Assembly: GCF_003688725.1 (NCBI RefSeq)
Contig: NZ_REFP01000007.1
Coordinates: forward strand, 1-64,000
DNA from: Thermoactinomyces vulgaris
GTDB taxonomy: Bacteria; Bacillota; Bacilli; Thermoactinomycetales; Thermoactinomycetaceae
DNA: 64,000 nucleotides
Direction of reading: 5' to 3'
Positions 760 through 39,000 of the stretch are shown here, piece after piece (within the stretch, counting starts at the first letter, position 1; each line of letters starts with the position of its first letter). The notes beneath the pieces were generated by a model that was not told the DNA's origin, ran no database searches, and saw only the letters and a program-made list of their open reading frames with translations. The position numbers and the translations under genes are program-made.

Positions 760-1485
760 GTGAATATCCAAAGAAGCTGGATTGTTTTCATCATGTTATT
801 AGTATTCCTGTTGGCCGGATGCACAGGAAACATGGAAGATATGGATAAAGCTGAAGAAAAAGAGATCAAAGCAAAAGCGATCCAATATATCAAGGATACA
901 TATAATAAAGATTTTGAAGTATCCGAGGTAAGTAAGGACCGTTTCATAGGACAGACTTATACAGTTAGAGGAAATGTCAAAGATCAAAAGAACACTCAAG
1001 TATCCATTATTATGGAACCGAATGAAATCAGGGATACATACGTGGCTGCATTATGGACGGAGGAATTAAAGCCAAAAATTACATCTTTGGTTGAAAAAGA
1101 TTTTGACGTAAGAGAAATTGAAGATATAACTTATGCAAATGGAACTGAAAAAGATAAGTATACAGGAGAGATTCCTTCTATCTTTGAAATATTGAAAAAT
1201 GGAGGAGATCCCGAATATGATTTATCTGTAACATTGGATGTTTATGAACAAAATGGCCAATATGAACAAGGAATCAAAAACTTTTTAAAAGAGCTAAAAG
1301 AATTGAATTTTAACGAAATTGGAGTTGCAGTTTTTGTTTTTGAAGACAAGCTAAAAACAGCTCCAGAGGGTACCAATGATAGGGATTACATCTTATATCG
1401 CTATAACATTTCTATTGACGATATCCAAAAAATCGATATCGATCATCACAATTTGGATCAATACAAAACAGTACTTAAAGATTGA
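760..1485 (+). CDS. Paralogous lipoprotein, copy 2
   Basis: A 241-residue protein starting at GTG 760, preceded by AGGAAGGGAG. The N-terminus is a typical lipoprotein signal (basic MNIQR, hydrophobic stretch, lipobox LLAGC with Cys near residue 21), so the protein should be lipid-anchored on the outer face of the membrane. The mature part is charged, alpha/beta-like, and shares most positions with copies 1 and 3. No enzymatic motif or known domain is recognised. The spacer upstream carries its own candidate -10 box. Tandem paralogues of small lipoproteins are common in Bacillota and often vary in copy number. Confidence 0.88.
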   Translation: MNIQRSWIVFIMLLVFLLAGCTGNMEDMDKAEEKEIKAKAIQYIKDTYNKDFEVSEVSKDRFIGQTYTVRGNVKDQKNTQVSIIMEPNEIRDTYVAALWTEELKPKITSLVEKDFDVREIEDITYANGTEKDKYTGEIPSIFEILKNGGDPEYDLSVTLDVYEQNGQYEQGIKNFLKELKELNFNEIGVAVFVFEDKLKTAPEGTNDRDYILYRYNISIDDIQKIDIDHHNLDQYKTVLKD

Positions 1486-1606
1486 TCAAATAGGGACGGG
1501 CAGAAAGAAATTTGCCCATCCCTAAATTTATGGCTAAGTTAATGGGACAGAGAAATTTATATAATGACCTTAGGAATTGATTGATGATAGGAAGGAAGTG
1601 GAAAAG
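1486..1606 (+). repeat. Conserved intergenic spacer of lipoprotein array, unit 2
   Basis: Second copy of the spacer. The stop-proximal hairpin arms are GGGACGGGCA and TGCCCATCCC, with one mismatch and no strong U-run, so it is at best a weak terminator. TATAAT lies at 1559-1564 and the ribosome binding site AGGAAGGAAG precedes copy 3. Confidence 0.7.
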
Positions 1607-2338
1607 GTGAATATCCAAAGAAGCTGGATGGTTTTCATTCTGTTGTTTGTATTCCTTGTGGCTGGATGCACAGGAACGGGAGGCATGGGAGATATGAATC
1701 GAGCAGAAGAGAAAGAGATCAAAGAAAAAGCGATCCAGTATATCAAAGATACATATAATAAAGATTATGAAGTATCCGAGGTCAGGAAAGATCTTTTTAC
1801 TGGCAAGACTTATACCGTTGAAGGGAATATAAAAGATGGTCAAAACACTTATGTGGCAATCATTATGGAACCGAATGAAATCAGGGATACCTATGTGGCA
1901 ACATTATGGACGGAAGAATTAAAACCCAAAATCACGTCTTTAGTTGAAAAAAATTTTGATGTAAGAGAAATCGAAAATATTGGTTTTTCAAACGGAACCA
2001 AAAAAGATAAGTATACCGGAGAGATTCCATCTGTGTTTGAAGTCTTGAAAAATGGAGGGGATCCAGAATATAAGCTAAATGTGACCTTAAGGGTTTATGA
2101 GCAAAATGGTCAATATGAACAAGGAATCAAAAACTTTCTAAAAGAATTAAAAAGGTTAAACTTTAACCAAGTTGGAGTAACAATTTTTGTTGCAGATGAT
2201 GAATTAAAATCAGCACCAAAGGAAGCTGAAGAAAGTCAATATACCTTATACCGCTATAATATTCATTTTGAAGATATCCAAAACATAGACATTGATCATC
2301 ATGATCTGAATCAATATAAGACAGTCATTAAAGAATAG
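1607..2338 (+). CDS. Paralogous lipoprotein, copy 3
   Basis: A 243-residue lipoprotein. I chose GTG 1607 rather than an in-frame TTG at 1577 because it matches the start of copy 2 and is preceded by AGGAAGGAAG. It has a signal peptide with lipobox LVAGC, a short Gly/Met-rich linker (GTGGMGDMN) not present in copy 2, then the shared domain. The C-terminus NQYKTVIKE resembles those of the other copies. Function unknown. It is the last member of the array, and the spacer behind it leads to no further copy. Confidence 0.88.
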   Translation: MNIQRSWMVFILLFVFLVAGCTGTGGMGDMNRAEEKEIKEKAIQYIKDTYNKDYEVSEVRKDLFTGKTYTVEGNIKDGQNTYVAIIMEPNEIRDTYVATLWTEELKPKITSLVEKNFDVREIENIGFSNGTKKDKYTGEIPSVFEVLKNGGDPEYKLNVTLRVYEQNGQYEQGIKNFLKELKRLNFNQVGVTIFVADDELKSAPKEAEESQYTLYRYNIHFEDIQNIDIDHHDLNQYKTVIKE

Positions 2339-2429
2339 AGAAACGGGGAGGGGCAGAAAGAAATCGGCCCATCCCTAAATTTATGGCTGAGCCACTTAGA
2401 CAGTATATATATAATGATCTTAACAATTG
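2339..2429 (+). repeat. Terminal spacer of lipoprotein array (orphan promoter-like copy)
   Basis: Third copy of the spacer, including the hairpin after the stop codon and TATAAT at 2410-2415 followed by GATCTTAACAATTG. Here the repeat breaks off at about 2429 and no paralogue follows. It marks the right edge of the tandem duplication and suggests either a lost fourth copy or the duplication breakpoint. Confidence 0.65.
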
Positions 2430-2444
2430 CAACATTAAATACGA

Positions 2445-2482
2445 AAGGGCAGGAAGACCGCACGGCGGCCGGCCTGTCCTTT
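2445..2482. terminator. GC-rich hairpin terminator
   Basis: GGGCAGG and CCTGTCC enclose an inner CCGC/GCGG pairing, directly at the end of the minus-strand gene 2481-2846. No long T-run is present on either strand, so termination strength is uncertain. Confidence 0.5.
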
Positions 2483-2846
2483 ACTTTTTCGCTGAATCGT
2501 CAATTGCTTGAACGGCCAGGTTGAACGCTTGGATTCTTCTTTCCAAAAGCGTTTTTTGCGGACTTCCTTCTTTTGACTTTGCGTAAATCTTTTCAATGGA
2601 AGGGAGCAAACCGGTGAGAATTTGGCGGGCTTCGGTCAGCTCTTCAGATGTGAAAGGATGAGGCCTTTGATACCAGGCGTATTCCAGCATGGCCAAGCCG
2701 ATGTGAAAGGCTTTGAGCCTTTTCCGGATGAGGGAGGTGTTTGCGCCTTTTTGCGTCATCTGATCCAAGGCATTCTCCGATTTGCGGATGGTGGATTGAA
2801 AGGATTGGATGGATTCGGTTATCACGCTGGCAGGTACATTCTCCAT
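2481..2846 (-). CDS. Small helical hypothetical protein
   Basis: A 121-residue protein starting at ATG 2846, chosen over upstream in-frame ATGs because GGAGAGGAG lies 7 bases ahead. The sequence is predicted to be almost all helical, with no Cys, no signal peptide and no membrane segment. The pattern FQSTIRKSENALDQMTQKG plus LLPSIEKIYAKSKEGS suggests a helical bundle. The family is not recognised. It is transcribed alone, convergent with the lipoprotein array and divergent from the Arg-rich gene. Confidence 0.75.
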   Translation of the reverse strand: MENVPASVITESIQSFQSTIRKSENALDQMTQKGANTSLIRKRLKAFHIGLAMLEYAWYQRPHPFTSEELTEARQILTGLLPSIEKIYAKSKEGSPQKTLLERRIQAFNLAVQAIDDSAKK

Positions 2847-3052
2847 GTTTTGTCTCCTCTCCCTGTTTTTTCTTCGCACGGTCATGATGATCCTTTTGTT
2901 TCAGAGTGTCAAGAGCAATTTTGCATCTGCATGCAAAGCAAATGACAGGGGGAATCAAGAAGAAGTTTAATTTCATGAAATTTGGTTCTTGGTTTAGACC
3001 AATTGCAGGGAAATTCATAGAATAATTTAGCTTTGTAAAAAGGAGGGATAGG

Positions 3053-3337
3053 ATGACAGAGTTTGGAATCCACCTTGGCCAAGATCATGGGGTCACTGCG
3101 GCACAGGCAAGGAGAATTTTCGTTCTCCGCCGGGGAGAGAGAAGAATTGTGCGCTGCGGAAGAAGAGTGGTGCGCATTCGCCGCTTTTTTTTGCGCCCCG
3201 GTGAAGTTTTGGTGGTCATCTGCGGCCGGGGCCGGCACAGACAAACCTTTATTTTTGTCTGCAGAGGGCGGCGCATCCGGAGAACGATTGTCCGGAGAGT
3301 TCGCCGAAATACGCTGATTTCGGTGCGTTGTGTTTAA
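3053..3337 (+). CDS. Arginine-rich small protein
   Basis: A 94-residue protein with a strong ribosome binding site (AAAGGAGGG, 5 bases before ATG 3053). It contains 26 Arg (about 28 percent) and 4 Cys. From about residue 20 it alternates hydrophobic and basic residues, for example RRIVRCGRRVVRIRRFFLR, and ends in a second similar block (GRRIRRTIVRRVRR), suggesting an internally repeated beta-rich basic fold. Binding to nucleic acid or the spore coat is possible but unproven. A competing plus-strand frame at 3063-3317 has no ribosome binding site. No homologue is recognised. Confidence 0.7.
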   Translation: MTEFGIHLGQDHGVTAAQARRIFVLRRGERRIVRCGRRVVRIRRFFLRPGEVLVVICGRGRHRQTFIFVCRGRRIRRTIVRRVRRNTLISVRCV

Positions 3338-3387
3338 TCCGGTTCTCTAATTTTATGGTTGGGACGGGGAATGAATCCCCGCCTTTT

Positions 3388-4713
3388 TTATTGTTGAAAT
3401 TGCGGCAGATATTTTTGGTGGGCTTTCAGCATTTCATCCAGGATTTTTTTGGCGGCGGAGTCGGAAGGGACGAGCGGATTGATGGTCATGGCAAGCAGGG
3501 CGGTATGGTAGTTGCCGGTTACGGCGGCTTCGGCGGCAACCCGTTCGAAGGATTTAATCTGTTGGACGAGGCCTCTGACGGGGATGGGCAGGTCTCCGAT
3601 GGCGATGGGTTTGGGGCCGCTTGCGGTGATGACGCAGTTGATTTCGACGGCGGAATCGTGGGGGATGCTGGCGATGGCGCCTTGATTTTTTACATTGACG
3701 GTTTGGATGTCTTTGCGGTCATGATAAATGGAGTCGATCAGGTTGCAGGCGGCATCACTGTAGTAAGCGCCGCCGCGTTGTTCCAGTTCGGGCGGTTTGG
3801 CGGCGAGCTTTGGGTCTTTGTATTTTTCAAACAGTTCAGCTTCCACTTTTTGCACCACTTCGGCGCGGGTTCCGGTTTTTCGCGCTTGCTCTTGTTCTTC
3901 GGCCAGCATTTTTTCCGTTTGGAAGTAGTACCGGTGATACGGACAAGGAAGGATGCCCAACGCTTTGATAAACTCTTTTTCCCAGCCCAAGTCAATAATG
4001 TTTTTGGCACGGATGCCGGAGGTGTCTCCTTGGGCGATCCGGTCAATGATTTGTCCGGTGATGTTTTGCCCGTCGAGATAAACGTTGAGCCCGAAGACCA
4101 TGTGGTTTAATCCGGCAAAGTCGATATGAATCCGCTCCGGCTCGACCTGAAGCATTTGGGCCACGCTCATTTTCATTCCGACGGGAATGTTGCAAAGGCC
4201 GGCCACTTTGGTAAGCGGGCTGTATCGGAGGATGGCTTCCGTGACCATGCCGGCCGGATTGGTGAAATTGATCAGCCAGGCATCGGGACAAAGGGTTTCC
4301 ATCTCTTTGCAGATGTCCAGGATGACGGGGATGGTGCGAAGTCCTTTGAAAAGGCCGCCCGGCCCGTTGGTTTCCTGTCCGATCACACCGTATCGGAGAG
4401 GGATCTTTTCATCCAATGCCCGGGCGCGAAGGCCTCCGACCCGGAACTGGGTGATGACGAAATCCGCACCTTGAAGCGCTTGCTGCCGGTCTAACGTGAG
4501 ATGAATGCGGATGGGCAGTCCGGCTTTGTTCACCATGCGTTTGGCCAGATTCCCGACAATGTTTAATTTCTCTTCTCCCTCGGGAATATCGACCAGCCAC
4601 AATTCCCGGACAGGCAGATGGTCGTATCTTTTGATGAATCCTTCGACCAGTTCCGGCGTATAGCTGGACCCGCCGCCGATGGCGACAATTTTTAGTCTTT
4701 GTTTTTGGGGCAT
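3388..4713 (-). CDS. 6-phospho-beta-glucosidase-type glycoside hydrolase, family GH4
   Basis: A 441-residue cytoplasmic enzyme of the NAD- and Mn-dependent GH4 family, which cleaves phosphorylated beta-glucosides by a redox mechanism. Visible marks are the N-terminal Rossmann motif VAIGGGSSYTPEL, ITQFRVGG, INFTNPAGMVTEA, the metal-site Cys in GLCNIP and the His in GLNHMVF. NPAGMVTEA fits beta-specific rather than alpha-specific members (family knowledge). The start ATG 4713 has GGAGGTG upstream, and a longer N-terminal extension in the same frame lacks one. No PTS transporter is adjacent, so the substrate route is not evident here. Confidence 0.9.
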   Translation of the reverse strand: MPQKQRLKIVAIGGGSSYTPELVEGFIKRYDHLPVRELWLVDIPEGEEKLNIVGNLAKRMVNKAGLPIRIHLTLDRQQALQGADFVITQFRVGGLRARALDEKIPLRYGVIGQETNGPGGLFKGLRTIPVILDICKEMETLCPDAWLINFTNPAGMVTEAILRYSPLTKVAGLCNIPVGMKMSVAQMLQVEPERIHIDFAGLNHMVFGLNVYLDGQNITGQIIDRIAQGDTSGIRAKNIIDLGWEKEFIKALGILPCPYHRYYFQTEKMLAEEQEQARKTGTRAEVVQKVEAELFEKYKDPKLAAKPPELEQRGGAYYSDAACNLIDSIYHDRKDIQTVNVKNQGAIASIPHDSAVEINCVITASGPKPIAIGDLPIPVRGLVQQIKSFERVAAEAAVTGNYHTALLAMTINPLVPSDSAAKKILDEMLKAHQKYLPQFQQ

Positions 4714-4963
4714 GGAAACGACACCTCCGGATGAATTCGGTTGGATATTTATAAAAACATTCCTATTATTCATTATATAGGATCTGAAGGTCGGGAACCA
4801 AAAGAGTGATCCGGATGGCAAAGATATTGGTCAGGCTTTGATGGCGGGCATACCAACTTTCGCTTGGCAAATGGCGCTTATAAAAAGGGATGGATCCGTC
4901 CATATTAAAAATGGAAAACATGTGTTGATTCCGGAAATTGTTTTGCCATAAAGGAGGAAACCG

Positions 4964-5428
4964 ATGCGCTTTTGGAGTGTGATGTTCAGTTTGATTTGGC
5001 TGGTTACGGGATGTTCGGCAAGCGGGGAAAACCAGAGTGCTGATTTCAGCAAAGGGGCCGTTTTTTATTTGGACAAGACGTTTGCCGAAAGGGCCAGGTT
5101 TTTCCGGAATGCTTTCCGGACTACCAAGATCCATGTTTGCACCCTCGACCGGGCCAATGCCGAAGCACGGAGGGAAGCCGCTTTTAAAAACCATCCCGTA
5201 AAAGATGGTTATGACCGGGTGGAGTGGCCGCTTCATGTCTGCAAGGAGGGCGGAGCCGGTTCGTATGTGGATTATGTTCCCAGTGACAACAACCGGGTGG
5301 TGGAAAACTGGATCCAAGAACAATTGAGCCAATATCCGGATGGGACCCGCCTGATATTCCGAATTGGGAAAAACCTGGAGATCAAGGCGTTGGCGCCTCC
5401 GGGCAATGATCCATCCCTGGCTTCGTAG
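4964..5428 (+). CDS. NucB-like extracellular DNase, lipoprotein form
   Basis: A 154-residue protein with a signal peptide ending in lipobox LVTGC (Cys 17). The mature part matches the NucA/NucB nuclease domain: GYDRVEWPLHVCKEGGAG, then VDYVPSDNNR and LSQYPDGTRLIF, the blocks that hold the catalytic Asp/Glu/Asn of NucB-type non-specific DNases (family knowledge). In Bacillus, NucB is secreted during sporulation and degrades extracellular or mother-cell DNA. A lipid anchor here would hold the nuclease at the cell surface. AAAGGAGG lies 6 bases before the ATG. It is a single gene. Confidence 0.85.
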   Translation: MRFWSVMFSLIWLVTGCSASGENQSADFSKGAVFYLDKTFAERARFFRNAFRTTKIHVCTLDRANAEARREAAFKNHPVKDGYDRVEWPLHVCKEGGAGSYVDYVPSDNNRVVENWIQEQLSQYPDGTRLIFRIGKNLEIKALAPPGNDPSLAS

Positions 5429-34384: not shown

Positions 34385-34417
34385 AAAAAAAGCAGCCATT
34401 CCCCCAAAATGGCTGCG
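34385..34417 (-). terminator. Terminator of the regulator-peptide operon
   Basis: On the minus strand GCAGCCATT pairs with AATGGCTGC and TTTTTTTA follows. It lies 49 bases after the second mini-gene and closes a transcript made of the TPR regulator and the two 12-codon genes. Confidence 0.88.
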
Positions 34418-34466: not shown

Positions 34467-34505
34467 TTATACGGCAGGCGGTTCTCCGTCAAAGAGAAAA
34501 GTCAT
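34467..34505 (-). CDS. 12-residue leaderless peptide 2 (candidate pheromone)
   Basis: A complete 12-codon gene reading MTFLFDGEPPAV, with AAGGGAG 9 bases before its ATG. It lies 49 bases behind the stop of peptide 1, in the same orientation as the HTH-TPR regulator, and just before a terminator. Its last six residues and the LF at positions 4-5 match peptide 1, while the codons for L, F, the second P, A and V, and the stop codon, differ only by synonymous changes. That is strong evidence for selection on the peptide. There is no signal sequence. It is most likely a ligand of the adjacent regulator, possibly after trimming (inference). Confidence 0.75.
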   Translation of the reverse strand: MTFLFDGEPPAV

Positions 34506-34554
34506 TGTGTTAAACTCCCTTCCTTAAGATTAAGATTGGATTGGAAAAGTACGA

Positions 34555-34593
34555 TCAAACAGCGGGCGGTTCTCCGCCGAAAAGGCGTTTCAT
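34555..34593 (-). CDS. 12-residue leaderless peptide 1 (candidate pheromone)
   Basis: A 12-codon gene reading MKRLFGGEPPAV, with a near-perfect AAAGGAGGG 6 bases before the ATG, 38 bases behind the stop of the HTH-TPR regulator. In RRNPP systems (Rap-Phr, PlcR-PapR, AimR-AimP) the signalling-peptide gene sits directly downstream of the receptor gene, but there it normally encodes a longer, secreted precursor. Here the whole gene is 12 codons with no leader, so secretion would need a dedicated exporter or the peptide may act inside the cell. The mRNA can also fold GGCGG/CCGCC within the gene. Confidence 0.75.
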   Translation of the reverse strand: MKRLFGGEPPAV

Positions 34594-34631
34594 CCGGATC
34601 CCTCCTTTCCAGGAAAAGGAAGGGAAAGGGG

Positions 34632-35951
34632 TTACAATTTTCCCTCGCCTTTTTCAAGTAATTGGCAGTAAGTTTGAAAAAATCTGTTTTTATATTTTTC
34701 ATAAGTGACAGGATCTTCCTCTTCGCAACATTTTGCAAGTTTGACGAGGATTTCCGGTTCAAGGATTTTGAGTGCATGTTTTTCGGAGATCGTGAGTGCT
34801 TTTTGCAGGCATTTGCGTGCATCGCCGTTTTTGTTTTGGCGCATGTAGCAATCGCCCAGAGCAATGAGAGCATTGCAGTATTTTAAAGCATCGTTTGTTT
34901 TTTGTCCTGTTTGTACGGCATTCTGCAAAGCTTTTTGTGCGAAGGGGATTTTTTTTGTTTTTAAGTATAGCATACCTAGTTTCGTATAGGTAGATACCAA
35001 CATATTTTTTTTTCCGATTTTTTTTTCTAGTTTTAATGCTGTGCGAAATGCAACTTCTGCTTTGTAATAATCCCCCATGTTTTGATAACAATCCCCGAGC
35101 GCCGTCCAGAGCTCAAACGCGCGGTCCACATTTTGGTCCACACGGGCCAGATGCAGGCCTTTGGTGGCATATTCGATCGCCTTTTCATGCAGCTCCTGTT
35201 TGCTGAGCAAGGTGGCGTGCACTTCATACATACTGCTGCGGATCTCGATGCCCTCGATATTGTCGACTTCTTTCCACATATCTTCCAAGGTGCGGAAAGC
35301 ATCTTCATTCCGGTTTAATTTTTCAAGGTAAATCACTTTGCTCATTTTTAAATGGTACACGACATATTCGCGTTCACCGGAGGGGTCATAGGATTCCAAC
35401 CCTTTTTCAATATAATGGAGGGCTTGTTCGATATTGTTCAAATAATAACAACAACGGCCCAGTTCATTGTAGGTTGCGGCTTGCACGTTGGTTGATTTCC
35501 AATCGGGATACTGTTTCAGTGTGCTCAACGTTTTCAAAAATTGGGCCTGTGCCTTTTTCCAATGTTTTTTCCGGGCAATGCATTTTCCTTTTAAAAAGAG
35601 GTATGTGGGAAGCAAGGGGGAGTTTTTGTCAATCTCGGTTTTCCTGAGTTCTTCCAAACCTTTGTCCGGACCCGCCATGTCGATGTCATGCTCGATCGCG
35701 AATAATTTGAATTTCAATTGTTCTTCGCGTTCCTTCTCGTCATCATAAGACTTGGATAACTGCTTGATGTCCAGATCCAGCTTGTTGCATATGTGCAGAT
35801 ATATATCCTCATTCACCACTTCGCCTTTTTCGACTTTGCGGATGGTATGGAGTTTGATCATGTTATCCACCAAATCGCTTTGCCTGAGCCCCAAATCCTT
35901 CCGCCTTTTCCGAATGACACGCCCCGCATTCTCATGGTCAAGAGGGAGCAA
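34632..35951 (-). CDS. HTH-TPR transcriptional regulator of the RRNPP type
   Basis: A 439-residue protein. An XRE-type helix-turn-helix (about residues 8-60: AGRVIRKRRKDLGLRQSDLVDNMIKLHTIRKVEKGEV) is followed by about nine tetratricopeptide-like repeats (100-430), including TYNELGRCCYYLNNIEQALHYIEKGLESY and ALGDCYQNMGDYYKAEVAFRTAL. This is the layout of peptide-sensing RRNPP regulators. The start is TTG 35951, fixed by a perfect GGAGGTGA ending 5 bases upstream; a GTG nine bases further up would overlap that site. Two tiny peptide genes follow on the same transcript, and a RiPP-like gene set is divergent. Confidence 0.92.
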   Translation of the reverse strand: MLPLDHENAGRVIRKRRKDLGLRQSDLVDNMIKLHTIRKVEKGEVVNEDIYLHICNKLDLDIKQLSKSYDDEKEREEQLKFKLFAIEHDIDMAGPDKGLEELRKTEIDKNSPLLPTYLFLKGKCIARKKHWKKAQAQFLKTLSTLKQYPDWKSTNVQAATYNELGRCCYYLNNIEQALHYIEKGLESYDPSGEREYVVYHLKMSKVIYLEKLNRNEDAFRTLEDMWKEVDNIEGIEIRSSMYEVHATLLSKQELHEKAIEYATKGLHLARVDQNVDRAFELWTALGDCYQNMGDYYKAEVAFRTALKLEKKIGKKNMLVSTYTKLGMLYLKTKKIPFAQKALQNAVQTGQKTNDALKYCNALIALGDCYMRQNKNGDARKCLQKALTISEKHALKILEPEILVKLAKCCEEEDPVTYEKYKNRFFQTYCQLLEKGEGKL

Positions 35952-35960
35952 CGAACTCAC

Positions 35961-36218
35961 CTCCGCAAATAAAAAAATTTTTGTTTATTTTCGGTTGTTT
36001 TTTTGTTGCTTTTCATGCAAATATGCAAAATCCGGGTGAACATTTTTGCTTTATTTTTATTTATTTATCTAGTTTGGCACAAATCTGCAAAATTCCTTCT
36101 ATTATTAGTAATTTTGTATCGATTTGCAATGTAAGAAATAGATTTATAAACTATAGTCAGGAAGATGCCGATTGGTTTCAGTGGTTGAAACACCGCAAAA
36201 TTTTGGGAGGAGTTGCTT
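35961..36218 (+). promoter_or_regulatory. AT-rich divergent control region with TGCAAA motifs
   Basis: This 258-base gap between the TPR regulator and the DUF3970-like gene is far richer in A+T than the surroundings. TGCAAA occurs at 36016-36021, 36024-36029 and 36086-36091, and its complement TTTGCA at 36123-36128. The first two are spaced 8 bases apart. These are candidate operator half-sites for the regulator. A TATAAA/TATAGT stretch near 36144-36156 could be the -10 box of the plus-strand operon. Confidence 0.45.
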
Positions 36219-36512
36219 ATGTTGAAGGTGCAGGTTGAAGGCCAAAAGGAAAAGGTCGGACCATTTTTGTCGGAATTGAGACAACGTTCGCAAATCGAAT
36301 ATTTGCGAGATGAAACCAATTTTCAGGAAAAAGAAGAAATCCGTGTGATTTGTTACGTGGAGCACAAGCCGGAGCACCGCATCAAAATGGTGAAATTGTC
36401 GACGGGTGACGGGTTGGAAATTCAACTTCCGTTGATCGATGTCATCCAGGTGGAGATGGAAGACGGCAAAAAAATCATTACCGGACGCTCCTTTGACATT
36501 TTTGGAACGTAA
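36219..36512 (+). CDS. DUF3970-like small protein
   Basis: A 97-residue protein with GGGAGGAG 6 bases before ATG 36219. The first half (MLKVQVEGQKEKVGPFLSEL ... REIRVICYVEH-like) resembles DUF3970, a small beta-alpha-beta protein in Bacilli of unknown function. The second half (KLSTGDGLEIQLPLIDVIQVEMEDGKKIITGRSFDIFGT in outline) is extra and could be a small beta-domain. It is the first gene divergent from the TPR regulator. It does not resemble the PqqD-like RRE proteins of RiPP pathways. Confidence 0.7.
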   Translation: MLKVQVEGQKEKVGPFLSELRQRSQIEYLRDETNFQEKEEIRVICYVEHKPEHRIKMVKLSTGDGLEIQLPLIDVIQVEMEDGKKIITGRSFDIFGT

Positions 36513-36753: not shown

Positions 36754-36840
36754 TTGAAAGATGTAAAAATTTGCATTAAAATGGAATTAACCGGGGGATT
36801 TTTCTTGATGGCTGAATCATGCCAAACCGTTGACAGATAG
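36754..36840 (+). CDS. 28-residue peptide, candidate RiPP precursor
   Basis: A 28-codon gene (TTG start, AAAGGAG 7 bases upstream). The product begins MKDVKICIKMELTGG and ends GGFFLMAESCQTVDR. A T-G-G junction followed by FFLMAE could be a leader/core boundary: a Gly at position 1 and the Glu 7 residues on (or 8 from the first Gly) would be compatible with a lasso macrolactam, though the usual leader YxxP motif is missing and the length is short. A terminator follows immediately, then the B2-like and cyclase-like genes; partial termination after the precursor gene is typical of RiPP loci. Assignment is inference. Confidence 0.45.
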   Translation: MKDVKICIKMELTGGFFLMAESCQTVDR

Positions 36841-36859
36841 AGTGATAAGTGAGAGGAAA

Positions 36860-36895
36860 AGTACAGTAGGGGTTCGGGAATACTGTGCTTTTTTT
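36860..36895 (+). terminator. Terminator/attenuator between peptide gene and B2-like gene
   Basis: AGTACAGTA pairs with TACTGTGCT (one G-T) around a 12-base loop and is followed by six Ts. It ends 21 bases before the GTG of the B2-like gene, so downstream genes would be expressed by read-through or after antitermination. Confidence 0.82.
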
Positions 36896-36916
36896 ATGGA
36901 TTGGAGGCTTTCTTGG

Positions 36917-37402
36917 GTGAATCTGTATTTTGTTCTTTTGTTTGCCAAGGACCGGGCGGCCAAAGTTCCTCCATTACCGTTCAAGCGGTTGCTCCGGGTG
37001 ATCGTGATTTCGGTTTGGATGCTTTTGATTTACCGGATTTACGGTTTAAACAAAGCCATGGACCGGCTCAAGTCGATCCGATGCAAAGATCCCGTGCGCA
37101 TTAAAAATCCGTTGGCGGAATTTTTGTTCGCCAGGCGGGTGATGGTCTGGTCGCAATTTGTGGTGTCCCTGTTGAATGCGGGAAAAATTGATTCTTTCCT
37201 CCGTTCCCTGTCATTGTGTGCGTCTCTTAAAAAGTTGGGGATTCCGGCGCAAATGGTGTTGGGGGAAAAAAGTGACGACCATGTGATTGAAAATTTGCAT
37301 GTCTGGGTTGAACTCCGGCAGATTCCCCTGAATGAATCATGGGAGGTTGAATGGCACTTTCGAGAAATTAAGCGTATTCCGGAAAGGTTTGACGTCCATT
37401 GA
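36917..37402 (+). CDS. Lasso-peptide B2-type (transglutaminase-like) protease homologue, Cys replaced
   Basis: About 161 residues. GTG 36917 has GGAGG 9 bases upstream; two in-frame ATGs further up lack one. The N-terminal part is amphipathic (LPFKRLLRVIVISVWMLLIYRIYGLNKAMDRL) and the C-terminal part aligns with the Transglut_core3 domain of lasso B2 leader peptidases: SFLRSLSLCASLKKLGIPAQMVLG, HVWVEL and PLNE. The catalytic Cys normally at the first position of a CLxRSL-type motif is Ser here (S93), while the His (H128) and the following Asn are kept. It may be inactive, use Ser or use C101. The stop overlaps the start of the next gene. Confidence 0.78.
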   Translation: MNLYFVLLFAKDRAAKVPPLPFKRLLRVIVISVWMLLIYRIYGLNKAMDRLKSIRCKDPVRIKNPLAEFLFARRVMVWSQFVVSLLNAGKIDSFLRSLSLCASLKKLGIPAQMVLGEKSDDHVIENLHVWVELRQIPLNESWEVEWHFREIKRIPERFDVH

Positions 37403-39000
37403 GAAAATTTGATCCGATCCAGGGATTCATTGATTTCGGTTTTTTTCAGAGTTTTTTCCAATTTTACGGTGAGGTCTGGGGTTATCCGCCCCGGTTGGAA
37501 CCTTTGATGAAGCTGATCCAAAACAACAACTGGCATGAGGCCAAAAAAGAATTCAAAACATTGTTGAAAGAAGGGCCCGGTTTTTTAAAACAAATCGACG
37601 GTGCTTTTATTGTCGTTTATTTTGAAAGGAAAGAAAGAACCGGATTGATTTACCGAAGTTTGTTGTGTAAATATTCCCTTTATCTGCGCCGGACCAAGCG
37701 GCAGATCTTTTGGTCCACCCGGATTGAACAGGTACTGGGAGAAGACCGTCCCTATTTGTCCAAAGTGAAAAAGGAAGAACTGGTGGGGTCCTGTTTTGCG
37801 GAAGTCCAGGAGCCATCCCAGACCTATTTTCGGGATATCAAAAAGCTGCCGGCCGGGCACATGATCCGCGTCCACCGGGAGAATGAAGAGATGACCCTGT
37901 TTGACCAATTGCGTCCCCGGCCGGATTATGCCAAGTTAAAATGGGACCAAGCGGCGGATTTGGTGATCGAAATCCTGACCCAAACGATCCAGGACCGGAT
38001 TGAACCGGCCGACCGGGTGGGGGTTTTGCTGAGCGGAGGCATTGATTCCTCGGCGATTCTCATGATGTTAAAATCCTGCCAGATCCCGGTCGTTGCATAT
38101 CATTGGGGATGGCGCGGCGAAAAGTCCAAGGTCCGTTTCAGCGCGGAAAAGGTGACACGATTGGCGAATGTCCCGCTCATTATCCTTGAACCGGGGGATT
38201 TGAAGGCGTTAACAAAAGATGCCAACCAATTTTATTTGCCGTATCCCGGCTTGGATTACCTGATGATCAAAGAAGCCCGCAGGCAAAGCCAAAAGGACGG
38301 GATCAACCTGCTTGCTTCCGGGTATTTTGGCGACTATATTTTCGGCTATGACGGAACCGGACGCTTTTCCAAGCGGATATGGAACAAAACGTTATCCAGA
38401 CGGCTGATGGAAAAGCTGGGAATGCTTCGCCCGACGTGGGCCAATCATCCGGAAGACATCCCGATTCCGCTTTTTTTTACCGACAAGGCGGCAAAAGAAG
38501 CCAAAAATTATCTAGGCTCGCTGAAAGAAAAAACCAGTGCCCGGCAAGCGATGGGGTATTCATTAAACCGGGACAAGGAGTCCCTTATTCAGTTGCATCA
38601 ATTGTCCCCGCATCAAATGAACATGTTGTTTCCCTTTGTCAGCAGAAAACTGATGGAAATCGCCATTTCCCTGCCTTCTGAAATGAAAGTGCTGTTTCGC
38701 GGGGGGCAATGGATCGAAAAACCGGTGTTGAGACAGGCGTTTTTTGATTGGCTGCCGGGTGAAGTGATTGCCTATGTGCCCCGGCAGTACCGGGTGTTGC
38801 CGATGGAGGCCCGTTTTTTGCTGAAGCACCGGGAACAAGTCAAAGAATTGCTGGATGAAGACTCGATCTTGGCGGATTGGGGAATCATCCATTGTGAACG
38901 GCTGAAAGAATGCCTGGAACACCAGCGGTTGCTGATGTTGTCGACCAAAGGGCTGATTTGGGCATTCATGACAGAAATATGGCTCCGCTCTTTGTTGTGA
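37399..39000 (+). CDS. Asparagine synthetase-like cyclase (lasso-peptide C type)
   Basis: A 533-residue protein starting at TTG 37399, which overlaps the upstream stop (ATTGA), so translation is coupled. The N-terminal 180 residues have the glutaminase-like Ntn fold but no N-terminal catalytic Cys (starts MRKFDPI). The C-terminal domain has the PP-loop SGGIDSS (212-218) for ATP adenylation and the LLASGYFGDYIFGYDG segment. This combination, next to a B2-like protein, is the hallmark of lasso-peptide macrolactam synthetases (McjC type), which activate an Asp/Glu side chain. An ordinary AsnB would keep the Cys and run about 610 residues. Confidence 0.85.
   Translation: MRKFDPIQGFIDFGFFQSFFQFYGEVWGYPPRLEPLMKLIQNNNWHEAKKEFKTLLKEGPGFLKQIDGAFIVVYFERKERTGLIYRSLLCKYSLYLRRTKRQIFWSTRIEQVLGEDRPYLSKVKKEELVGSCFAEVQEPSQTYFRDIKKLPAGHMIRVHRENEEMTLFDQLRPRPDYAKLKWDQAADLVIEILTQTIQDRIEPADRVGVLLSGGIDSSAILMMLKSCQIPVVAYHWGWRGEKSKVRFSAEKVTRLANVPLIILEPGDLKALTKDANQFYLPYPGLDYLMIKEARRQSQKDGINLLASGYFGDYIFGYDGTGRFSKRIWNKTLSRRLMEKLGMLRPTWANHPEDIPIPLFFTDKAAKEAKNYLGSLKEKTSARQAMGYSLNRDKESLIQLHQLSPHQMNMLFPFVSRKLMEIAISLPSEMKVLFRGGQWIEKPVLRQAFFDWLPGEVIAYVPRQYRVLPMEARFLLKHREQVKELLDEDSILADWGIIHCERLKECLEHQRLLMLSTKGLIWAFMTEIWLRSLL

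Follow-up and report, generated by a model that had tools for sequence, protein, structure and literature searches.

Leaderless acidic-Pro-Pro peptides beside and within putative RRNPP-like receptors of Thermoactinomycetaceae

A putative HTH-TPR regulator gene of Thermoactinomyces vulgaris is followed by two 12-codon genes for leaderless peptides ending in GEPPAV, and peptides with a similar acidic-Pro-Pro core recur behind related regulators of Thermoactinomycetaceae or form the C-terminal tails of the regulators themselves. We interpret the locus, with moderate confidence, as an RRNPP-type receptor-ligand module in which the peptide has been set free of an export leader and the receptor controls a divergent small gene, YDIF. 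According to the sequence-only reading of this DNA, an RRNPP-like receptor lies next to leaderless peptides on which selection acts at the peptide level, and this proposal is borne out by the recurrence of the peptides, the codon comparison, and the TPR fold. Taken as a whole, its interpretation was supported in part. It had overlooked three things: the receptor tails of many relatives, before which a ribosome site is embedded, the counterparts that sister families export by Sec, and the divergent gene for YDIF. Leaderless RRNPP ligands are already known (the LCP and SIP peptides that act with RopB), and the surprising part is a ligand that is fused to its receptor and apparently started internally.

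Organization of the locus

The window is the whole 64,000-nucleotide stretch that was analyzed, and the features of the module within it are collected in Table 1. Direct reading of the minus strand confirmed the claim that two 12-codon genes led by Shine-Dalgarno (SD) sites, and then a terminator, follow the putative HTH-TPR gene. The TTG start of the regulator lies where its closest relative, from Thermoactinomyces mirandus (87% identical), has ATG. Mini-gene 1 starts 41 nt 3′ of the first base of the stop codon that ends the regulator. Between the MKRLFGGEPPAV and MTFLFDGEPPAV genes, different codons specify L, F, A, V, and the second P, and the stops are TGA and TAA, as had been claimed; the G, E, and first P that they share have the same codons.

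Table 1. Coordinates of the regulator-peptide unit and the divergent gene in the window
Feature	Position	Strand	Remarks
RRNPP-like regulator (putative HTH-TPR)	34632..35951	-	439 aa from TTG at 35951; ORF open to GTG 35960
Mini-gene 1, MKRLFGGEPPAV	34555..34593	-	12 codons, read directly
Shine-Dalgarno AGGAGG of mini-gene 1	34601..34606	-	read directly
Mini-gene 2, MTFLFDGEPPAV	34467..34505	-	12 codons, read directly
Shine-Dalgarno-like GGGAG of mini-gene 2	34515..34519	-	read directly
Intrinsic terminator hairpin closing the regulator-peptide unit	34392..34416	-	strong; z -3.3
Small protein of the YDIF family, candidate output gene	36219..36512	+	97 aa; divergent from receptor; relatives beside regulators
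Conserved AT-rich block, candidate operator	36107..36130	.	alignment footprint of L002, L008, L009, and L010

At the equivalent position, T. mirandus encodes MTRLFGEPPAV and MTRLFGGEPPAV, the ATG of the first mini-gene overlapping the TGA of the regulator, unlike in the window. The peptides MKHLVDGEPPAC and MKLRGHGEPPQA also occupy this position in the closest relatives of the regulator, and a terminator hairpin resembling that of the window was found at the T. mirandus locus and in the relative L008. Nucleotide differences between the frames of the window and those of T. mirandus, and within each of the two loci, are mostly synonymous, and a codon comparison over 21 pairs, which are not independent, gave a pS of 0.49 and a pN of 0.14 for the core. 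The next relative out (L012, 51% identical) has a sole frame of KPP type, which the strict rule described below does not count. Beside the module, two plus-strand ORFs at 36830-39000 resemble lasso-peptide-type processing proteins (transglutaminase-like and asparagine-synthase-like).

Recurrence of the peptides behind related regulators

The regulator had 6 matches in the genome of the window and, fragments included, 330 across 23 genomes of Thermoactinomycetaceae (1 to 31 each). From these matches 176 loci (L002-L177) were read; the selection was not random but followed the score order for the most part, with choices by hand. A strict rule was applied that required an SD site and a frame of 6-45 aa ending in [DE]PP plus 0-4 residues, located between -90 and +420 of the regulator's stop. 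Conservation beside homologous regulators had been set beforehand as the test of the sequence-only reading, and it held: strict frames were found at 64 of the 176 regulators, and the closest relatives carry similar peptides. Dinucleotide shuffling (20 rounds) yielded a mean of 0.2 strict frames with a maximum of 1, and the same rule returned 0/176 upstream of the regulators and 0/176 on the antisense strand. A chance origin of the frames was set aside on these counts. At other ORF ends of the same loci there were two hits in 165, MVIINQHTEPPGT and MVKRYKGEPPQA; these two (at the plus-strand ORF end 3500 of L075 and the minus-strand ORF end 3649 of L093) resemble the same peptide family and are possible orphan ligands.

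Relaxed criteria placed 81 of the 176 loci in an acidic-Pro-Pro class, termed xPP (82 once L065 was moved), 9 in a class with signal-peptide propeptides (Sec-type), and 12 among other small types, namely GPP (3, including L065 before its move to xPP), GDD (2), PIPA (4), and PDPT (3); no recognized peptide was present at the remaining 74, which weighs against the receptor-ligand reading. Membership of the relaxed xPP class is doubtful in some cases, for instance MTQPPSTNPVR (L129) and the long frame of L047, and the strict count of 64 is independent of this class. On a tree of 173 receptors that passed a length filter, the xPP label needs 20 changes versus 57 when shuffled. A leader-like hydrophobic stretch (12 residues with a mean hydropathy of at least 1.6) occurred in 0 of 96 xPP peptides.

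The core of these peptides consists of D or E (80/83) followed by PP, and the preceding residue is mostly G, S, or A. In 57 of the 83 cores the residue after PP is D, E, G, or N, which resembles ribosome pause motifs; [DE]PP[DEG] sequences are EF-P-dependent polyproline pause motifs. The mini-frames might accordingly be a translational device that stalls ribosomes and regulates the transcript instead of binding the receptor, but we regard this as very improbable. The frames lie 3′ of the regulator, and those of the window come immediately ahead of the terminator, where no target follows that they could regulate; some second copies have a broken PP (SDSPQE in L091 and SDPQPES in L086); acidic-Pro is retained, but PP is not, in relatives of the PDPT and GPP types and in the hexamers of the Sec-type; and cores repeat inside one peptide, as in ESDPPKP (three times, L075), NEPP/TEPP (three times, L130), and PDPPD (twice, L018 and L021). 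The occurrence of several cores in a row within a single peptide points to a short active unit.

Two putative ligand variants, as the sequence-only reading had proposed, are present in the window, but such pairs are not general: 12 of 81 xPP loci hold at least two peptides. The residues flanking the core track receptor distance weakly (rho 0.07, with 18 of 300 permutations as high), so that receptor-peptide coevolution is not demonstrated beyond close relatives. We consider it likely that the acidic-Pro-Pro peptide is the ligand of the receptor.

Several other leaderless peptide types were seen behind related receptors, including FGDDxEP pairs (L173 and L174), repeats of GPPD genes (L046 and L143), and IPDPTND repeats (L027, L085, and L092). 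Short frames of the form MKPGN...VPIPA (L007, L105, L117, and L133) lie between the receptor and, by eye, a metH-like gene, to which they may belong.

The peptide as the receptor's own tail

At 52 of the 176 loci the receptor ORF itself carries the xPP sequence, in frame, as its C-terminal tail, and when the window receptor is aligned with a fused one it ends exactly where the tail begins. An SD sequence of 5-6 nt together with an in-frame start codon precedes the tail in 41 of the 52 (one further locus has 4 nt), versus 14 of 675 equally long control windows of the same ORFs. The remaining 10 lack an SD by the strict list, although GGGGGT stands at that position in 8 of them. The junction usually reads GGA GGT GA, translated as Gly-Gly-Glu/Asp.

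Since the tail follows GG[DE] in most fused receptors, the SD-like sequence could merely code a Gly-Gly linker, and the tails could be C-terminal degrons, interaction tags, or remnants from which no free peptide arises; as degrons they could direct the receptor to a protease. We consider this very improbable. GGA is used for the first Gly at 29 of 42 junctions, compared to 37% in receptor bodies (p 2.6e-5), and the SD nucleotides are read as RR in L013, L015, and L079 and as KEV in L038 and L066. These nucleotides are thus kept across reading frames and despite different amino acids, with GGA preferred, which indicates that the ribosome site and not a linker is conserved. In addition, separate mini-genes with their own SD occur in the window and 30-odd other loci, and the residues after PP vary.

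The strict first peptides that start at least 20 nt inside the receptor ORF were all in frame with it (40 in frame and 0 out of frame). Of the others, six overlap the stop out of frame by a few bases, mostly as ATGA, and 22 begin after it. Fused and separate forms have interchanged at least nine times within the xPP receptors, and no fusion was present among the Sec-type loci of the family (0/9). These features suggest that the fused genes probably yield a free form of the peptide by internal initiation. An AlphaFold2 (AF2) model of one fused receptor (L248) was of high confidence except for the tail, whose residues 450-476 had a pLDDT under 50 and were left unplaced, so that the model offers no docking evidence for or against binding.

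Exported counterparts in sister families

We compared the module with 51 homologous receptor ORFs, the best among the matches listed, from 48 loci in 19 genomes of five families of the order. None of these 51 sister-family receptors, among the matches listed, had a DPP frame or tail. About 24 of the 51 receptors listed are followed, by eye, by a propeptide with a basic-hydrophobic leader and a hexamer end, and among the matches listed this propeptide typically overlaps the receptor by 14 nt out of frame. The hexamers, again among the matches listed, are of the [SGTD][DENKQ]P type (SEPGGG, SNPGAG, SDPTGT, GDPTLS, SEPKGT, SEPIRT, and SDPGRG), and GDPIHT, SKPGGH, and SEDPGMS are repeated within propeptides of this set. 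Within Thermoactinomycetaceae, the 9 Sec-type paralogues end in SQPGGV, SQPGGL, TEPVGP, SEPGGL, SDPIGP, or similar sequences, and the best stretch has a hydropathy of about 2 or more in 9/9 of these peptides. The leaderless cores SDPPGS, TEPPGT, and GDPPDS look like the Sec-type hexamer unit without its leader, and from this distribution we infer that the direction was from Sec-exported to leaderless.

Such counterparts bear on a further explanation, extracellular leaderless quorum sensing as in SIP/RopB, whereby the peptides would leave the cell by an unknown route, be trimmed, re-enter through an oligopeptide permease, and report density, the receptor tails being a side effect of gene overlap. 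We hold this to be possible, although the less likely course. LCPs are leaderless, secreted, and re-imported, according to the accessible part of the LCP paper (PMC10518010); sister families have exported pheromones with similar hexamers, among the matches listed; and the repeated cores within a peptide suggest processing. However, a ligand that forms the receptor's tail at so many loci makes little sense for density sensing, and the xPP peptides are not hydrophobic, unlike LCPs.

Receptor class and fold

The window regulator scored above the cut-off for TPR_2/TPR_12 in Pfam, and the receptors are 439-442 aa long, within the 250-500 aa range of RRNPP(A) receptors. The HTH assignment is tentative: TIGR03070 matched at residues 13-47 with an E of 2.1e-4, far below the family cut-off; Pfam gave no HTH at E 0.001, and the N-terminal helices were predicted by AF2 with low confidence. 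TIGR01716, which covers the RopB/Rgg clan, was not among the 14 NCBIfam families listed for the receptor at E up to 1. A single-sequence AF2 model of the regulator (pLDDT 74) showed a TPR superhelix. Its best structural match was eukaryotic LGN (Z 29.6), and RapI (Z 25.0) and NprR (Z 24.9) came next among bacterial receptors. That LGN rather than an RRNPP receptor heads the matches of the predicted model counts against the RRNPP-type reading.

By gene organization, the window has the adjacent small peptide gene with an SD site that is typical of RRNPP(A) systems but no Sec-exported propeptide, its peptides being 12 aa long without a hydrophobic stretch. Rap-Phr, NprR-NprX, PlcR-PapR, and other such systems share with the window a TPR-containing receptor about 440 aa long, to which an HTH is added in HTH-TPR types and putatively in the window, and a peptide gene downstream; the sister-family relatives of the window receptor have Sec propeptides as these systems do, and the predicted TPR fold is comparable to those of RapI and NprR. 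Unlike these systems, neither the window nor the xPP class has a signal peptide, and the presumed ligand may be encoded within the receptor ORF itself.

Comparison with known leaderless ligands

The sequence-only reading had held that known RRNPP ligands come from precursors with leaders. This does not apply throughout, as leaderless RopB ligands (SIP and the LCP class) have been published, as far as the accessible part of the source goes (PMC10518010). In LCP/RopB systems such as SIP of Streptococcus pyogenes, as in the window, a very short leaderless peptide with its own ribosome-binding site lies beside a TPR receptor, and several candidate targets are divergent from the receptor, according to the same partial text (PMC10518010). 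LCPs are described there as hydrophobic 8-10-mers of RopB/Rgg-clan receptors in six listed families, which do not include Thermoactinomycetaceae, and with none in phages (PMC10518010, accessible part). The peptides studied here share the leaderless, ultrasmall form with a ribosome-binding site and differ in hydrophobicity and size, the xPP class having a median length of 16 aa and a median best hydropathy of -0.46 with a [DE]PP core. They differ further in that their cores are acidic-Pro-Pro, no TIGR01716 match was listed, and receptor-fused tails with an embedded start occur.

In its "loose" mode, RRNPP_detector would list TPR receptors beside SD-led peptides that lack a secretion tag, and it counts four candidate biosynthetic-cluster cases in Thermoactinomycetaceae (PMC10075063, accessible part). 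Receptor-fused ligands fall outside it because a separate gene of 10-100 aa is required, in the text accessible to us (PMC10075063). Neither a DPP family nor receptor fusions or leaderless peptides from Thermoactinomycetaceae were found in the accessible main text of that paper (PMC10075063). More broadly, neither leaderless DPP peptides of Thermoactinomycetaceae nor receptor-embedded RRNPP ligands were found in the literature searched, outside of which lay preprints and most subscription journals.

The divergent YDIF gene

YDIF proteins have about 100 residues and end in ...GKxYDIF. The gene is divergent from the receptor in 100 of 176 loci by HMM and in 93 of 176 by BLAST clustering; by class, the HMM placed it at 64 of 82 xPP and 1 of 9 Sec-type loci. 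It was absent from the 48 sister-family loci among the matches listed and from three sister-family genomes searched. Of 29 YDIF hits in five family genomes, counted by hand, 23 adjoin a regulator, as does the second YDIF copy in the genome of the window. The N-terminus matched DUF3970 below the cut-off in 4 of 10 members, a family for which no mention was found in the published literature searched, and a PDB search with the YDIF protein returned nothing convincing. Judged only by position, YDIF is rather likely to be the regulated output gene.

The AT-rich block sits on the YDIF promoter side of the intergenic region. Scanning with a matrix of this block gave matches in 49 of the 176 upstream regions, 37 of them among the 100 loci with YDIF and 12 among the 76 lacking it, and in 0 of 175 regions downstream. 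Since training and scoring of the matrix used the same regions, the operator motif is suggestive only. A second small protein family is also divergent from receptors, at 540-810 of L171 and at 10 other loci (11 loci, of which 10 are xPP); the gene at 1325-1528 of L248 was assigned to it by eye.

Proposed mechanism

In the mechanism that we propose, the TPR domain would bind the acidic-Pro-Pro core at the C-terminus of the mini-peptide (GEPPAV in the window and [GSA][DE]PPxx in general), and binding would switch the regulator's control of the divergent YDIF gene. Ancestrally, the ligand would have formed the terminal six residues of a pro-pheromone exported by Sec, whose gene overlapped the receptor 3′ end; sister families and a minority of the paralogues would retain this arrangement. 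The leader would have been lost in Thermoactinomycetaceae, with the peptide made from its own ribosome site in either of two derived forms, a receptor tail nested in frame or a separate mini-gene as in the window. Rather than signaling density, the peptide would then act in the producing cell, whether free or tethered as a tail; we give its acting inside the producing cell an even chance. We are equally divided over the broader notion that the pheromone has been internalized, such that one ORF would give both a self-liganded receptor and a free ligand, the window would represent the split-off form, and together with YDIF an intracellular circuit would result that is present in up to 31 copies per genome.

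If this mechanism is true, nature has here run an experiment on the conversion of an extracellular signal into an intracellular one, with one receptor family spanning exported pheromones, leaderless mini-genes, and receptor-embedded ligands, and the purpose of leaderless peptides becomes directly testable. An SD sequence embedded in the 3′ codons of a receptor would then be a codon-level marker for such ligands elsewhere, and searches that demand a separate or Sec-tagged peptide gene would miss those that are embedded.

Mobile context

Searching the receptor against phage records returned no match, and plasmid records gave one, from Staphylospora marina at 24% identity. An IMG/VR contig (L248) carries at 907-5136 a receptor-ligand fusion, two YDIF-like genes, and a 68-residue protein, and the fused receptor lies directly beyond tail, holin, and endolysin genes, which is a phage cargo position. 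An endolysin similar to that of L248 occurs in the flanks of 8 of the 176 loci. Some modules therefore travel on prophages. This one copy on a prophage contig sets the family apart from LCPs, for which none in phages are recorded in the accessible part of the source (PMC10518010).
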